From the IMG/VR virus record IMGVR_UViG_3300043607_000069, positions 1-37,690 of that record: a stretch of DNA of 37,690 bases; one strand, given 5' to 3'. Both the position numbers and the translations under genes were made by a program. The DNA is from a virus. This document shows positions 5,693 through 37,510 of the stretch, piece by piece; the first letter of the stretch is position 1; each line of letters starts with the position of its first letter. The notes below the pieces were generated by a model. The model was not told the origin of the DNA and ran no database searches. It worked only from the letters and a program-made list of their open reading frames with translations.

Positions 5693-6871
5693 CTACCCGC
5701 CGAGGAACACACCGGCGTTGGTGCGGACGATCGATCCGCCGTACAACGCGTCGAACGACCACTGCACCTGACGATGCTGTCTCGTAACTTCCAACCGTAG
5801 CGCGAGTCCCGACACTTCATCGACTGCCGTCGCCGTGAGCGTCGCACCCGGTACCTGAATGGTATCGAGCAGAGGAGCCATGGCGAACGCGATCGCATCG
5901 CGGTGAATCAACGTGTTCATCACGAACGATGCCTTCTTGGTGATCGTCTCGCCACCGGCTGAGGCAATGACCAAGCCACCGACACCAGCCGAGATCCCCC
6001 GGAACGGTTCGATAGTGATGGACGTGATCGTGCCGCCACCCACCGTCGTCTGCACCTGATGCGTGATACCCGGTTCATGCGAGAATGAAATGATGTCTCC
6101 CGGCAACAGCGTACCGGTTGCACCACCAGAGATGGCGAGCACCGTCGCGCCAATGGCGTTGACACCAGTGATGGTCGAACCGGTCACGTAGGTACCGGCC
6201 GTATGCGTCGGCACGCGCTGAGACATCAGCCACAGTGCACCGAGCTTGCGACCGATCTGGCCATTGATGATCCCGTCCGTGTCGCCACGGAACGAAGCAT
6301 CCTGGAACGCACGCAGACCGAGAGCGTTGGCTTCTGCGTCCGTGTTGATGACCATGTACCGAGGATCCATGTCCATCAACTGGTTGTTGCCGATCTTGCG
6401 GGCATCGAGATAGCCCGACAGATCGGTAGCGAACGGCGTGGTACCGGACACTCCGGCGAATCCATAGAACCCACCGGCCGCATGTGTGAGCGACCAGAGG
6501 AAGTCCTCGATGGTGTTCGCCATTCCCTTGATCGCTTCTTTCGCCTGCATCGGCAGGATGCCCCGATCGACCTGCGACAGACCTTTGTCGTCCATCGCGA
6601 ACGGCGCTTCCTTCCACTGCGACAGTGTGACGGGAATCGTGGACGGCGTGACGGCGGTGACCGCCGGAGGCACAACGTCCGGCGCGACGGTACGAGTGGC
6701 GACCGCTGCCGGTACGGCAACGTTTACGGTAGCGAATCGTTTCGCAGCCGTAATCTCCGTTTCGTAGTCACGATTGGCGATGTGCACCAGGGCTAGTTGT
6801 TCGCGTAGGGTCGCGAGACCCATAGCCACAACTGTGCCGAGGATATTGGTAGTGACGAGTGCTCCTGCCAT
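5693..6871 (-). CDS. Major capsid protein, P22 coat-like
   Basis: A 392-residue protein with a strong AAGGAGAC Shine-Dalgarno. The order of segments matches P22 gp5-like coat proteins. There is an N-arm with GLATLREQLALVHIANRDYE (residues 18-37), a beta segment RFATVNVAVPAAVATRTVAP, and a P-loop-like region TLSQWKEAPFAMDDKGLSQV. A helix (ILPMQAKEAIKGMANTIEDF) follows. Residues about 225-300 (VTGSTITGVNAIGATVLAIS, LLPGDIISF) form the inserted beta domain. The C-terminal VTRQHRQVQWSFDALYGGSI is a typical ending for this family. It forms the icosahedral shell. The gene has a 200-base hairpin-rich leader and a palindrome after its stop, consistent with separately tuned expression. Confidence 0.85.
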   Translation of the reverse strand: MAGALVTTNILGTVVAMGLATLREQLALVHIANRDYETEITAAKRFATVNVAVPAAVATRTVAPDVVPPAVTAVTPSTIPVTLSQWKEAPFAMDDKGLSQVDRGILPMQAKEAIKGMANTIEDFLWSLTHAAGGFYGFAGVSGTTPFATDLSGYLDARKIGNNQLMDMDPRYMVINTDAEANALGLRAFQDASFRGDTDGIINGQIGRKLGALWLMSQRVPTHTAGTYVTGSTITGVNAIGATVLAISGGATGTLLPGDIISFSHEPGITHQVQTTVGGGTITSITIEPFRGISAGVGGLVIASAGGETITKKASFVMNTLIHRDAIAFAMAPLLDTIQVPGATLTATAVDEVSGLALRLEVTRQHRQVQWSFDALYGGSIVRTNAGVFLGG

Positions 6872-7165: not shown

Positions 7166-7975
7166 CTACGCTCCTGCGTTCGAGTACACGACCTTGACCT
7201 TGCCCTTCAAGATGTCAGCCGAGAACTCTCCGAGTTGTGCCGGTGTCGGGTCACGAAGCTCAGTCTGACCCGGTTTCAGACCGCCACCGCCACCGCCACC
7301 CCGGCTACCTTCCGACCCACCACCGGTGGACGGTTTGAATGCGAAGTCCACTTCCTTCATCTGAACACCGAGCCACTCTTCGACATTGAGTGGATCACCC
7401 GGCTTCACCGAACTGAACTTGTTCGCTTTGGCGACAACCCTGCCGTCCTTTACTTCGAAGGCATCCGTGGCTTTGCCCACGATGAAGTCCAGCGCTGAGG
7501 CAATGCCGCCGACCTTATTGAAGTGTTCTCCGACCGTGGATCGAAGTGTCTGATCATCGGCTCGCTTCCGTTCGGCCACGAGCAGCGCATCCGATGAAGC
7601 GATCTTTTCTTCCAACGGCTTCACTGCGGCTGTTACGGCACTGGTGACCAAAGCCGAGATGTCGTCCGGCTTCGTGACACCTTTCTTCTTGAGCTCCTCG
7701 ACTTCGGTCAACGCCTTCTTCGCGGCGTCGATGTCGAGACCTTCGACCTTCACCTTGATTGGTCGAAGCTCCTCGACTTCCTTCATCAGCTTCACGTTGT
7801 TATCTCGGAACTCGACGACTTTCCCGAGTTGCACTGCGTGATCTGCTGCGGACACGAATCCCGGCGGAGCCGCATCGAGAATGACTTGGTACTTCCCGTC
7901 CTTCTGTTCATAGTACTGTCGAAGCGGTTCGGCGACTTTGTCAAGCGATTCCACCACCGGTGGTAATCCTGCCAT
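7166..7975 (-). CDS. Capsid scaffolding protein
   Basis: A 269-residue acidic, strongly helical protein directly upstream of the coat gene, the expected place for a scaffold. The N-terminal half is Lys/Glu rich, with coiled-coil character (VEFRDNNVKLMKEVEELRPI and ALTEVEELKKKGVTKPDDIS). A folded region with TVGEHFNKVGGIASALDFIV follows. Then come a Gly-rich linker (STGGGSEGSRGGGGGGG) near residues 215-233 and a C-terminal segment that could bind the coat protein. Scaffolds direct shell assembly and then leave. No protease gene is seen next to it. Confidence 0.75.
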   Translation of the reverse strand: MAGLPPVVESLDKVAEPLRQYYEQKDGKYQVILDAAPPGFVSAADHAVQLGKVVEFRDNNVKLMKEVEELRPIKVKVEGLDIDAAKKALTEVEELKKKGVTKPDDISALVTSAVTAAVKPLEEKIASSDALLVAERKRADDQTLRSTVGEHFNKVGGIASALDFIVGKATDAFEVKDGRVVAKANKFSSVKPGDPLNVEEWLGVQMKEVDFAFKPSTGGGSEGSRGGGGGGGLKPGQTELRDPTPAQLGEFSADILKGKVKVVYSNAGA

Positions 7976-21130: not shown

Positions 21131-21573
21131 TGAGTATTATTGTTGATCCCACCAGACATATCGGCCATACCTGCATCCTCGGTAAACACGTTTGGTTCAT
21201 ATGCACCGGTGTTCGAGAGGTGAACGGCTGGATTGTTCCGGCAGACACCATGGAAGAGCCATTCGGTCAAACTAAATGTCTCTGCGGACAGTACCAATGG
21301 CGGAATCGCACACCACCATGGATTTTACTCAAACACGTGGAACCCCTTAGGAGACAGACCATGGCAGATGCAACCAAGGCACCGGACTTCGCAGAGCACA
21401 TCAGCACACTCAAACGCGAACTGTACAACGCGATGACGCCGTGTCTCGCGCGGTTCAAGGAACGAACCGGCGTCACGCCGCGAAACATTCGCTGTGATAT
21501 GATTGATACCTCGGTCTCCGGTGACATGCGCAGTTACATACTGGGTGATGTGAAGGTGGAGTTCGAACTGTAA
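21130..21573 (+). CDS. Two-part protein, possibly with an internal start
   Basis: A continuous 147-residue frame. The N-terminal 77 residues carry CLCGQYQWRNRTPP after an earlier single Cys and look like a small domain on their own. At residue 78 an ATG (21361) is preceded by TAGGAGAC at proper distance. From there MADATKAPDFAEHISTLKRE reads like a second start with a helical body and a beta end (RSYILGDVKVEFEL). Either one protein or a full and a short product may be made. Confidence 0.58.
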   Translation: MSIIVDPTRHIGHTCILGKHVWFICTGVREVNGWIVPADTMEEPFGQTKCLCGQYQWRNRTPPWILLKHVEPLRRQTMADATKAPDFAEHISTLKRELYNAMTPCLARFKERTGVTPRNIRCDMIDTSVSGDMRSYILGDVKVEFEL

Positions 21574-21899
21574 TGGATCGTCGAGAGTTTTTTCGCCGTG
21601 CGTTCGCGGTGCTCGCCACGACGGCCGTTGCCGAGCTCGATATCGAACGGTTGCTCTGGGTTCCCGGTGAGCGCACGATCTTTCTACCCTCGACATTTGA
21701 TGTCCACGCCGTCATCATGCGTGAAGGGTTGAAAATTCTTCGGGAACAACTAACATTTACCCGGCTCATCAACCGACAATATGACGGCGCAAGTTACGGA
21801 GAAAAAGTGCTCGAATTCATGACTCCAAAAAGGGGGGGTGACGAGATTTTTCGGCTTGATACCTCGGTTTCGGGCAAAAAGTGGCATTCAATTTCCTGA
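21573..21899 (+). CDS. Twin-arginine-like protein with a coat-protein N-arm segment
   Basis: A 108-residue product starting MDRREFFRRAFAVLATTAVA. It opens with a DRREFFR motif and a short hydrophobic stretch like a Tat signal, followed by LLWVPGERTIFLP. Residues 52-70 (GLKILREQLTFTRLINRQY) match coat protein residues 18-36 without gaps, with ten identities in 19 positions including LREQL and NR.Y. It lies far from the virion genes on the opposite strand. Possibilities are an assembly regulator, a superinfection factor or a coat gene fragment fused to an unrelated start. Whether it is exported is not known. Confidence 0.65.
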   Translation: MDRREFFRRAFAVLATTAVAELDIERLLWVPGERTIFLPSTFDVHAVIMREGLKILREQLTFTRLINRQYDGASYGEKVLEFMTPKRGGDEIFRLDTSVSGKKWHSIS

Positions 21900-22585
21900 G
21901 CAAATTCCACCACTGTGCAATTCCGTTCGACCAATCTGAAATGACCTGCAAATATTCTTTATCCCCAGGCCGGTGTACGGGTTAGCCACCCTTTCGACCC
22001 CATTTCGGCTGACTACCTTCTTCTTTTGTATGCACGGCCGATGTCACTTCAGGCGATAATAGCGGTGTCGGGTGGGTGACGGAGCGCAGGCAAGGGCCGA
22101 TGCCGACAGGCGAGTGCCCGGAACGCCGTAAGCCGCAAACCGAAATCCACAGCGACACGGGTACCACCCCAGGCTGTTACGAATCAAGGCCGGTGAACTG
22201 GGTGGGCCGCTTGAAAACAAAATACCAAGCAGGCTTTCAGAAAGCTGTCGCGCCTTCCAATGGCGCGGCCGGATGTTCCATTAGCGTTCCCTGACCACAC
22301 CGCCTCACGGCATAGCGTCACACGGGATAATTCGCGAACGACATCCGGTTGTCCACGGACACCAGCAGACCTGAAGTGGAAACACTCTCCGTTCTGGAGA
22401 TGGCCGCTTGACCCTTTCTACTTCCGCTGTGCAGGCCTATACCCAGACCGCACGTATCCAAGTGCACACGGACAGAGATGATGAGGACAACGCGATGGTG
22501 ACAGTATCGCGTTGTAAATCCCCGCCAGCATAGTGCTGGTGACCGGTTCCAAGGCCGGATGGATTTACTGAAGGAGAAGAAGGTC
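21900..22585 (+). ncRNA. Gene-free structured region, candidate large non-coding RNA
   Basis: About 690 bases without a believable gene in an otherwise packed arm. Perfect helices visible by eye include ACAACGCGAT/ATCGCGTTGT (22487-22515, 10 bp), CGCGCC/GGCGCG (22249-22267), a long-range CCGGATGT/ACATCCGG (22269-22276 with 22341-22348) and TCTCC/GGAGA (about 22386-22400). At the 3' end, AAATCC/GGATTT (22516-22521 with 22561-22566) encloses two hairpins, CCAGCA/TGCTGG and CCGG/CCGG, making a three-way junction directly before the next Shine-Dalgarno. Several loops carry TTCCAA or ATCCAA. It may be a large phage RNA of the GOLLD/ROOL kind, a leader element, or both. No promoter was placed. Confidence 0.5.
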
Positions 22586-22654
22586 ATGGTCATGTATTGG
22601 TTCGGACTCGCCTGTATGGCGGCATCCGCGTTGTTTTACTTCGTTCGGAAATAA
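22586..22654 (+). CDS. 22-residue membrane peptide
   Basis: MVMYWFGLACMAASALFYFV followed by RK, behind the strong AAGGAGAAGAAGGTC start block. Almost the whole peptide is one hydrophobic helix with a positive C-terminal end. It immediately follows the three-way-junction RNA, so its translation could be what that structure controls. Confidence 0.55.
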   Translation: MVMYWFGLACMAASALFYFVRK

Positions 22655-22665
22655 AGGAGAAGGAC

Positions 22666-22854
22666 ATGACATCAGAAATGAAGGACATTCAGACGGTGCA
22701 CCAGACTATGGTCAAGTTTCTTCGTTACGCATTTAACGATATCAGCTACGAATACAACAATCTCACGGACGCAGAGAAGGCGTTGTGTACCGAAGAGGAA
22801 TTCGCAGCCATGCTGGAAACCGTATTATGGGAACCACGCAAGGCGCGTAAATAA
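22666..22854 (+). CDS. Small acidic helical protein
   Basis: A 62-residue product (MTSEMKDIQTVHQTMVKFLR) with AAGGAGAAGGAC before the ATG. It is helical and acidic (NNLTDAEKALCTEEEFAAML) and ends in a basic PRKARK. No recognised family; probably an early host-interaction protein by location. Confidence 0.6.
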   Translation: MTSEMKDIQTVHQTMVKFLRYAFNDISYEYNNLTDAEKALCTEEEFAAMLETVLWEPRKARK

Positions 22855-23239: not shown

Positions 23240-23503
23240 ATGAAGAGCAACAAGAACGTCAGCCGTCGTGGTCGTGCGCAGTTCGCTTTCGTCAAGGCCG
23301 TTGAGGCTCAGGAAGGTATCCAGGCGGTCGTGCTGCAGGCAGTGAAGAAGGTGCGGCATGGTTCGGTGGCGGATATCGCACAGGCCGCCATCAAGCTGGG
23401 ACTGAAGAAGGTCACCAGCCAGGACCCGTTGGTCCAGACCCATGTGCATCTCAATCGGCTGCGGGCCATTAAGGCGGTGAAGCGTATCAAGCAGGCCGCA
23501 TAG
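23240..23503 (+). CDS. Winged-helix-like protein, paralogue 1
   Basis: An 87-residue basic protein. Residues about 27-80 hold the pattern VVLQAVKKVRHGSVADIAQA, AIKLGLKKVTSQDPLVQTHV and HLNRL. This recurs in two other proteins of the window (25645-26244 and 30349-31017). Helix, GTVAEI-type turn, second helix and QDP..QT recognition helix fit a winged-helix DNA-binding fold. This copy has only the DNA-binding part with basic flanks. It probably acts as a regulator or DNA-architecture protein. Confidence 0.68.
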   Translation: MKSNKNVSRRGRAQFAFVKAVEAQEGIQAVVLQAVKKVRHGSVADIAQAAIKLGLKKVTSQDPLVQTHVHLNRLRAIKAVKRIKQAA

Positions 23504-24397: not shown

Positions 24398-24426
24398 ACC
24401 CATCGAAGAAGAAGGAGAAGAAGGTC

Positions 24427-24618
24427 ATGATTCGTGAAATGAACTCGCCATGGTATCCCTACGACGTAGTCGCTAGCGACCGCTGTTGGCATTGCCACGT
24501 TGAGTTTACCAAAGATGAATTCCTGCGCGTGATCGACTCCGTCGTACCGAAACTGGTGCATGACCGTCAGCCATGCGCTGCGGCAATGGTTCGGATGCCC
24601 ACGGTACCGCAGTCATGA
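24427..24618 (+). CDS. Small CxxC/His protein
   Basis: A 63-residue product (MIREMNSPWYPYDVVASDRC) with AAGGAGAAGAAGGTC before the ATG. It holds CWHCHVEFTKDEFLRVIDSV and a later Cys, a likely partial zinc site. Acting through protein contacts is possible. Function unknown. Confidence 0.58.
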   Translation: MIREMNSPWYPYDVVASDRCWHCHVEFTKDEFLRVIDSVVPKLVHDRQPCAAAMVRMPTVPQS

Positions 24619-35691: not shown

Positions 35692-36512
35692 GACTCGAAT
35701 TGGCGCATGTTGTTGTCATCGGCGGAGGGTTTGTTGGTCAACTGATTCAGTGGGCCATGCCGTCCGTCCGACTCCTGGACTGGCGCAAAACCGCTCCAGC
35801 GAATCATCTCGAGACCCGCATGGTCGGTCCGCAATATTTATGGGAACCGATTCCCGGTGTTGAGTCGTATTCGTTCGAAGTCGAAACCCTTGTAGATTCC
35901 GCTCCACCAACACCGGAGTCCGTCCTCGCCTACAAACGAAAGATCGGCAAGGAACATGACGGCGGTGATTGGGGACTTCAATTTCAACATCTCACTACCG
36001 GCTGGCACAGCCAACTCCCGACACCACGAGTCGAGTATAACCAACATGTCAAAGCCGTGGACCTGTCTGGACACCGACTCAGGATGGCGGACGGCCGCAT
36101 CATTGAATACGACGTACTGCTGAACACCGTCCCCTTGGACGCGTTCCTTAAACTCTGCCTCATCTCACCGCCGATCTATACTCCCTGGAAACAAGATCGT
36201 ATCTACCTGCGCACAGAAACCTTGGACGGCTCCTACGCCGGAATGCGATTGAATTATCTCTCCGATCCCACTAGTCGATTTTACCGTCAGACACTCACCG
36301 CCGATAAAATGTTCTTTGAGACCTTGGAACCCGGTCCGGACGTGAAGCCGCTTCCACTCGGCAAAATTCATCCGCATCCTCAAAGCGAAGACGTGCTCCG
36401 AGCATTGAAGGTGTTCGACACGTTCTGTTTCGGTCGTTTTGCGACATGGCGACCAGATGAGCTCGCGCATCAGACTTGGCAGAACATTCTCGAATGGAAG
36501 GGGACGCTGTGA
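35688..36512 (+). CDS. FAD-dependent oxidoreductase-like protein
   Basis: A 274-residue protein with a dinucleotide-binding start, LAHVVVIGGGFVGQLIQWAM, a GxGxxG-type loop in a Rossmann fold. VKAVDLSGHRLRMADGRIIE and YDVLLNTVPLDAF are the usual later strands. The end, FGRFATWRPDELAHQTWQNI, matches the C-terminal FAD-contact region of UDP-galactopyranose-mutase or amine-oxidase-like enzymes (G-R-x-A-x-W). Length is short for that group, so parts are missing. A role in modifying bases or surface sugars is possible. The substrate is unknown. Confidence 0.65.
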   Translation: MRLELAHVVVIGGGFVGQLIQWAMPSVRLLDWRKTAPANHLETRMVGPQYLWEPIPGVESYSFEVETLVDSAPPTPESVLAYKRKIGKEHDGGDWGLQFQHLTTGWHSQLPTPRVEYNQHVKAVDLSGHRLRMADGRIIEYDVLLNTVPLDAFLKLCLISPPIYTPWKQDRIYLRTETLDGSYAGMRLNYLSDPTSRFYRQTLTADKMFFETLEPGPDVKPLPLGKIHPHPQSEDVLRALKVFDTFCFGRFATWRPDELAHQTWQNILEWKGTL

Positions 36513-37510
36513 ACTTCAAGGCTATGCTCGAAGATCAACGAGCCTTCAACCAACAGATCTTTCCGGGTGGACTCGCGTGCCCGGTTGATAGTGAGTCCGA
36601 TACCGATCGGTTCCGAGTACGGTTGAAAGATCTGGCACTCGGAATGATCGAAGAGACCGGAGAGTTCCTCCGCACCTTCGAATGGAAGTCCCATCGGCGT
36701 CGGCAGGGCAAGCTTCAGAACGTCGCCCACTCGCACGAAGAACTTATCGACATGTTCAAGTACTGGTTGTCCTGTGCTGAGCTCGCAGAGTTCCCGATGG
36801 ACCGGCTGGAGGAACTCTATTACGCTAAGAGCCGGGTGGTGCAGTACCGCTACCAAGAAGAGTGGATGAAGCGGATTGACGGTCCATGTGTCTTGGTGGA
36901 CATTGACAATGTGTTGGCGGACTACATTCAAGGTGTCTGTCTCTGGGCAAAAGAACACGCACCGGCCTTGCTCAAACTGTCTAACACCTTGACCATTCGA
37001 CTAGCCGACAATCTAGATCGATTACGAGCTTCACACGATTACGTGAACGCTTCTAGTGTCGGTCTGTCAGCCGGTGAATGGAATGCGGTCAAGCACGGCT
37101 TCCGCACGCAAGGCGGAAAACGAACCCTGCCAGTGTTCCCCGACGCCAAGATCTTTCTCGACTGGTGCCGACGTCAAGACTGGAAAATCATTCTAGTCAC
37201 TAGCAGGCCGATCGATCGCTACCCGAACATCTTCACTGACACGCTAACCTGGCTTCACAACAACGACCTGCCATTCGACTATCTCTGGTGGGCTGACGAT
37301 AAGGCTCGACGGCTGGATGAGTACGGCGACATCCCACTGCGGCTCCATGTGGTGTTCGCGGTGGATGACGACCTCACGTTCATTAACCAGTATCGGACCA
37401 AGGGTATTCGCTGCTACTGGCTCAATCGTCGGACCTCAGAAACCCCTACCCACATCTCGGTTGTTCACTCACTGATGGAACTCATGGAGAAGGAGAAGGT
37501 ACATGCCTGA
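36509..37510 (+). CDS. Fusion: NTP pyrophosphatase/dUTPase-like + HAD nucleotidase
   Basis: A 333-residue protein started at GTG (36509), GTGA-coupled, with GGAAGGGG upstream. Residues about 42-110 are an all-alpha NTP-pyrophosphatase/dUTPase-like domain (MIEETGEFLRTFEW; SHEELIDMFKYWL). Residues 125-330 are a HAD phosphatase with VDIDNVLADY (Asp131, Asp133), LVTSRP (Thr231) and a late VDDD at 286-288, like 5'(3')-deoxyribonucleotidases. Joined, they could turn dUTP or another dNTP to dNMP and then to nucleoside, shaping the dNTP pool. The two halves usually exist as separate proteins. Confidence 0.8.
   Translation: MNFKAMLEDQRAFNQQIFPGGLACPVDSESDTDRFRVRLKDLALGMIEETGEFLRTFEWKSHRRRQGKLQNVAHSHEELIDMFKYWLSCAELAEFPMDRLEELYYAKSRVVQYRYQEEWMKRIDGPCVLVDIDNVLADYIQGVCLWAKEHAPALLKLSNTLTIRLADNLDRLRASHDYVNASSVGLSAGEWNAVKHGFRTQGGKRTLPVFPDAKIFLDWCRRQDWKIILVTSRPIDRYPNIFTDTLTWLHNNDLPFDYLWWADDKARRLDEYGDIPLRLHVVFAVDDDLTFINQYRTKGIRCYWLNRRTSETPTHISVVHSLMELMEKEKVHA

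Follow-up and report, generated by a model that had tools for sequence, protein, structure and literature searches.

The window, the whole 37,690-nt stretch of DNA that we analyzed, is a 37.7-kb phage record whose genome is split by strand, with structural genes (major head protein, scaffold, portal and terminase) on the minus strand and replication genes (DNA ligase, helicase and nuclease) on the plus strand. The element described here precedes the ligase, helicase and exonuclease genes and is flanked by small plus-strand ORFs; its features are collected in Table 1. The first listed downstream ORF also has shorter in-frame starts. No intrinsic terminator was found in the window between the RNA and this ORF, so a single transcript probably spans both, and there is no tRNA gene within the 37.7 kb. 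The ORF on the upstream side (21573-21899) encodes a small protein whose N-terminus carries a Tat-signal-like RREFFRRAFAVLATTAVA stretch; in other relatives this position is taken by a SLOG-family (YspA-like) protein.

Table 1. Positions of the element's features in the window, and of second twisters in relatives
Feature	Position	Strand	Remarks
Upstream control region	21823..22062	+	C/A/G tract, palindrome, -10-like hexamer
C-A5-G7 tract, A/G run	21827-21838	+	overlaps 3' end of ORF 21573-21899
Palindrome AATTTCCTGAGCAAATT	21890-21906	+	related form clear in window, G001, G004, G012
GATAAT, -10-like hexamer	22055-22060	+	directly before outer helix of body
Structured RNA body, ~417 nt	22063..22479	+	compensatory changes and partly shared fold topology; 5' end putative
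5' domain	22063..22158	+	outer helix 22065-22070/22153-22158, second helix, nested helices Pa/Pb/Pc (22089-22127)
Domain 2	22226..22410	+	A-rich conserved strand, then helix Pd 22226-22230/22406-22410
Long-range 8-bp helix in domain 2	22269-22276/22341-22348	+	3 of 8 pairs compensated in G001
3' hairpin preceding twister, GCAC-GTATCCAA-GTGC	22450..22465	+	fold inspection
Type-P5 twister ribozyme	22480..22558	+	Rfam RF02684 35.2 bits, E 1.6e-5; model R1 84.7 bits
Twister P2	22480-22482/22518-22520	+
Twister P1	22487-22496/22506-22515	+
Twister P3	22523-22529/22535-22541	+
Twister P4	22543-22546/22555-22558	+	L4 at 22547-22554
Predicted twister cleavage	U22515^A22516	+
Three-way junction	22514..22568	+	closed by GUAAAUCC (22514-22521)/GGAUUUAC (22561-22568)
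First listed downstream ORF	22597..22854	+
Second twister, L063	767-852	-
Second twister, L065	547-626	-
Second twister, L066	4840-4922	+
Second twister, L076	3138-3202	+

Distribution of the element

The same arrangement was found in seven other metagenomic phage contigs from IMG/VR, giving eight loci that include two close pairs, the window with G001 and G010 with G011. At all eight the element is placed upstream of small genes. Seven of the records share terminase, portal, head, helicase or ligase proteins at ~57-100% identity; the eighth, G013, gave no matches to those proteins, and its tail-region proteins are ~30-70% identical to those of other members.

No similar sequence was found by blastn against cultured phages and plasmids, and a helicase profile search returned no relatives beyond those already carrying the element. 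A twister pattern run against 84,980 prokaryotic genomes gave five matches, none with twister helices, which look like chance. The pattern GTAAGCCGCAAACCG gave 38 matches, among which the sequence around the motif was common only to a known relative, and the pattern GGCCGATGCC..GGCGAGNGCC gave 15, with the element only in G001 and G013 and no twister in the other loci fetched.

Coding status of the stretch

The preliminary description had held the stretch from 21900 to 22585 to be free of genes, and had named a conserved protein frame under purifying selection as one finding that would speak against an RNA. We compared the window with G001 (IMGVR_UViG_3300018072_000001), which is 88% identical to it over the element. 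All four ORFs of at least 60 aa that lie wholly or mainly in the stretch are broken by stops or frameshifts in G001, and the indels between the two sequences measure 1, 1, 2, 1, 2, 3, 1 and 1 nt. Substitutions are spread over the three codon positions without third-position bias (8/10/10), whereas those in the neighboring gene at 23240-23500 are distributed 2/0/15. On this comparison, the stretch encodes no conserved protein. A 273-codon open frame in G013 (L089 16246-17064) happens to span the RNA and the first twister, and no counterpart was seen in the other loci.

A variant type-P5 twister at the 3' end

An Rfam search and a test for covariation among homologues had been suggested as checks on the stretch. 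At a permissive threshold Twister-P5 (RF02684) was the sole Rfam match. The window's score and those of G003 (33.4 bits), G001 (29.9 bits, E 6.3e-6) and G004 (18.3 bits) all lie below the Rfam gathering cut-off of 37.6 bits, and the second copy in G013 lies above it at 44.5 bits. A sequence pattern from the first copies, together with one copy from the Rfam scan, gave 12 twisters across the eight records; scanning these and three unrelated records with a covariance model added none.

In a model-fitted alignment of the 12 copies, 98.4% of pair cells were standard, and compensatory changes occurred at 13 of 22 pairs, with P1, P2, P3 and P4 all represented. When the structures were slid by one to three columns as a control, only ~30% of cells were paired, a gap too large to be explained by the alignment having been fitted to the model. 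The 10-bp hairpin noticed earlier proved to be P1 of this ribozyme.

We judged the conserved nucleotides against the Rfam consensus and a review (PMC5408937), which also sets out the active-site roles of the A and G and the roles of the pseudoknots T1 and T2. UGUAAA, GAGGACA and CCAA are invariant in all 12 copies, so that the core is kept: the U-A cleavage step, GAGG in L1 and CCAA in L4. The element thus has in common with RF02684 stems P1 to P4, the U-A step, GAGG/UAA in L1, a CAA-containing L4 and complementary segments for T1 and T2. The essential stems P1, P2 and P4 stand in type-P5 order, and both pseudoknots can form, T1 and T2 being complementary in every copy. The element differs from RF02684 in pair identities that are consistently altered. 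P2 is GAU/AUC rather than the consensus GCA/UGC and covaries to GAUUU/AAAUC in G004 and GGGU/ACCC in the second G013 copy; T2 covaries as well, pairing CC with GG in eleven copies and being CG/CG in the second G013 copy (consensus GC/GC); T1 is GGA/UCC and does not vary within the set. These compensatory differences account for the window's sub-threshold score. Most copies share that low score, and the twister here is attached to a large conserved RNA. By sequence and covariation, then, 22480-22558 is a variant type-P5 twister, and self-cleavage is predicted.

Second type-P5 twisters lie deeper in the operon of four relatives (G003, G010, G011 and G013), where they sit at or beside a small ORF's stop codon and right before the next gene.

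The preliminary description had also pointed to three hairpin loops repeating TTCCAA or ATCCAA. The loops are present, but the repeat appears coincidental, and we rejected it as a functional motif: the copy at 22547 is twister L4, and the hairpin loop at 22257 differs in G004.

Compensatory evolution of the RNA body

Upstream of the twister, the body has a folding energy that is modest in the window alone (z -1.9 for the whole stretch and -1.4 for the body); across loci the body ranges from -0.4 to -1.8, with G013 alone at -3.3. The fold from one sequence beats chance only modestly, so the case for structure rests on homologues. Taking the window's minimum-energy structure as reference, and as null the same substitutions at random sites, we found that eight double-changed pairs in the body without the twister still pair in G001, against 0.37 expected (0 of 20,000 permutations). 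The pair G22074-C22148 in the second helix of the 5' domain is compensated to A-U in G001. Compensation also extends to the long-range 8-bp pairing, which had been described before and is borne out here. Between G003 and G010 there were 7-8 compensatory pairs in either direction against 1.4 expected (4 and 0 of 20,000), and between G010 and G011 three pairs had changed, of which two were compensated and none broken. When G001's own predicted minimum-energy fold served as reference, there were no compensatory pairs to the window, which leaves the global fold predicted from a single sequence uncertain. The antisense strand also scored five compensatory pairs, as expected from Watson-Crick strand symmetry; the RNA was assigned to the plus strand because of the twister.

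Independent folds of the eight bodies have a layout that is common in part, not as a whole: a closed 5' domain with Pa, Pb and Pc, an A-rich strand ending in AAUA, and Pd around variable hairpins. Pd appears as CAAGC/GCUUG, CGAGC/GCUCG and CGACC/GGUCG among seven of the eight loci; its window counterpart faces competition from a local hairpin involving 22209-22213. The strands of Pa to Pd pair inside every sequence and poorly across species (51 of 51 distinct cells, against 35.7 when strands were dealt among species), which we regard as supporting evidence only, because the registers were picked by eye and by hand. The 5'-domain covariance model R2, made from G003, G010, G011 and G004, picked out the equivalent site in G013 (17.8 bits, E 0.02) and gave no match at the element in the window or in G012, thus re-finding one of the three others. 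Near the place of the hairpin that precedes the twister, the folds inspected in relatives have a hairpin of other sequence. Comparison of homologues thus indicates that the body is under structural selection.

Apart from the twister, no Rfam family matched the body at E≤10 over the stretch. GOLLD, ROOL and OLE gave no match at the gathering threshold over the whole window, at E≤10 over the stretch, or at E≤0.1 in the seven homologous loci, and covariance models for group I and II introns, RNase P, tmRNA and HEARO matched neither the window nor the homologous loci. These results support the view that body and twister form one large structured non-coding RNA (~450 nt) of no described family. The earlier suggestion of a new type of RNA therefore holds for the body but not for the 3' end, which belongs to a known ribozyme class. 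GOLLD and ROOL are large phage RNAs with elaborate folds and no known function (PMC12286853), and the likeness that had been drawn to them extends to just that description; the element differs from both in having no Rfam match to either and no nearby tRNA gene, in being smaller (about 300-460 nt), and in its ribozyme 3' end.

A three-way junction at the predicted cleavage site

As had been described, a 3' three-way junction is present, and it ends 3 nt short of the purine-rich Shine-Dalgarno segment AAGGAG. It is closed by the strand 3' of the predicted cleavage site. A matching pairing occurs at the second twisters of G003, G010, G011 and G013 at a constant offset of 2-3 nt, with sequences that have changed and are still complementary (AATCCC/GGGATT, AAATCC/GGATTT and AACCC/GGGTT); single-case shuffle frequencies were 0.002-0.16. 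The junction is absent from G001 and not clear at first-position twisters elsewhere. It cannot coexist with P2, and is therefore best read as a fold of the mRNA 5'-end product, or as a switch.

The upstream region

Structure had been proposed for the whole gene-free stretch. This stands for about 22063-22558 but fails for about 21900-22060, which has no excess structure (z 0.55) and no compensatory changes between the window and G001. The first ~160 nt of the stretch are a DNA-level control region and unstructured as RNA. A C-A5-G5-7 tract marks the element's 5' border at all eight loci, 140-233 nt ahead of the putative RNA start. Several loci carry a related palindrome or a AAATCCGAAAGTCC-like element; GAATTTCCT/AGGAAATTC-like palindromes lie at 21890-21906 in the window, at about 1268-1285 in L062 and at about 10793-10811 in L067. 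Such a palindrome is possibly an operator or an origin element. No consensus sigma-70 promoter was found around 22055-22060 in the window.

In six of the eight records the cumulative GC-skew minimum lies no more than ~2.3 kb upstream of the RNA, and in a seventh it coincides with the RNA; G013 has no such signal. In the window the minimum is at ~20476, away from the strand switch near 18 kb. With seven of the eight minima so placed, an origin is possible.

Proposed mechanism and alternatives

We think it fairly probable that the element is a conserved non-coding transcription unit whose ~450-nt RNA has its 3' end made by the twister and is thereby parted from the downstream operon. The unit would open the block of rightward replication genes in a tailed-phage genome. 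We infer that the transcript begins near 22063, that its ~450 nt fold into several domains, and that in vivo the twister cuts U22515^A22516 without any protein, freeing the non-coding RNA from the phage mRNA. The freed RNA would bear a 2',3'-cyclic phosphate and the downstream mRNA would start with a 5'-OH. The 5' end created on the mRNA (AAAUCC...) could pair with GGAUUU a short way downstream, both in the window and at those twisters of relatives that lie closest to genes, and would form the three-way junction ahead of the ribosome-binding region. Such pairing may in effect keep the cut from being reversed and protect the start of the mRNA. Once released, the RNA might work in trans or as a scaffold. 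Tentatively, and with slightly more doubt than belief, we propose a phage non-coding RNA of a new class, related to no Rfam family, that is abundant in infection and trans-acting (possibly as an RNA-only assembly), with a twister-made 3' end and refolding of the mRNA into the junction.

A twister so close to the following gene, with no terminator found between the two, would also suit a cis-acting leader, in which an aptamer-like or phage-protein-binding body controls how the twister folds and hence what becomes of the downstream mRNA, with the released RNA as a by-product. The junction points the same way, since it ties up the strand at the cleavage site, so that neither P2 nor T2 could form alongside it. 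The glmS ribozyme acts in a leader and provides a precedent; it and other leader ribozymes have in common with the element a place shortly ahead of a gene and a possible tie to mRNA fate. Unlike glmS, the element has no downstream metabolite gene or known aptamer, and its body is large and multi-domain; known aptamers are far smaller and less varied in architecture. The first downstream genes vary among loci, and the further operon twisters of relatives have no body upstream. We regard a cis-acting leader as unlikely, if worth keeping in view.

Those further twisters, lying at gene ends in four relatives, raise the reading that the twister alone matters, trimming a polycistronic phage mRNA of which the rest is ordinary leader. 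They resemble the clustered hammerheads of prophages, which lie between genes, sometimes two in a row, and probably cut the polycistronic transcript (PMC3088659). The ribozyme class is another one here, however, and the first ribozyme ends a conserved structured non-coding RNA, whose body has its own compensatory evolution and helices recurring across divergent loci. Trimming by the twister as the whole story is improbable.

The skew minimum, the conserved upstream palindrome and C-A-G tract, and the ligase, helicase and exonuclease genes that follow the element might mark a replication origin at which the transcript serves as a structured primer, like ColE1 RNA II, with the twister setting the primer 3' end. 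A 2',3'-cyclic phosphate, however, cannot prime DNA synthesis unless repaired, the skew minimum is also near the gene-orientation switch, and the signal is missing in G013; we consider a primer very improbable. Chance structure or an undetected gene, which the modest single-sequence z-scores might suggest, is already contradicted by the covariation and by the broken frames and is scarcely credible.

To our knowledge, the natural role of twister ribozymes is an open question, and most of the large phage RNAs described have no known function. We found no paper in the open-licence literature on a twister that ends a large phage RNA. A twister joined to one conserved structured RNA across divergent phages makes a concrete role testable, namely the making of 3' ends of phage non-coding RNA and of 5' ends of phage mRNA by a ribozyme. 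The altered pair identities also broaden the consensus with which type-P5 twisters overlooked by Rfam can be sought.

Other observations on neighboring genes

The window's ORF at 36476-37510 has an N-terminal NTP-pyrophosphohydrolase-like and a C-terminal polynucleotide-kinase-like part, and its product is an end-healing enzyme that in principle might act on what the twister leaves. We considered healing of the cleaved ends by such a phage kinase, and it stays speculation because the phage ligase is DNA-type. A basic 87-aa protein, possibly nucleic-acid-binding, is encoded at 23240-23503; it is identical in G001 and kept near the RNA in G003, G010 and G011, and divergent homologues lie beside the helicase and ligase genes of G003, G004 and G012. 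The Shine-Dalgarno leader GAAGGAGAAGAAGGTCATG is repeated near-exactly ahead of several genes, at 22571-22589 and 24411-24429 in the window and at 6126-6144, 7180-7198 and 7794-7812 in L003.
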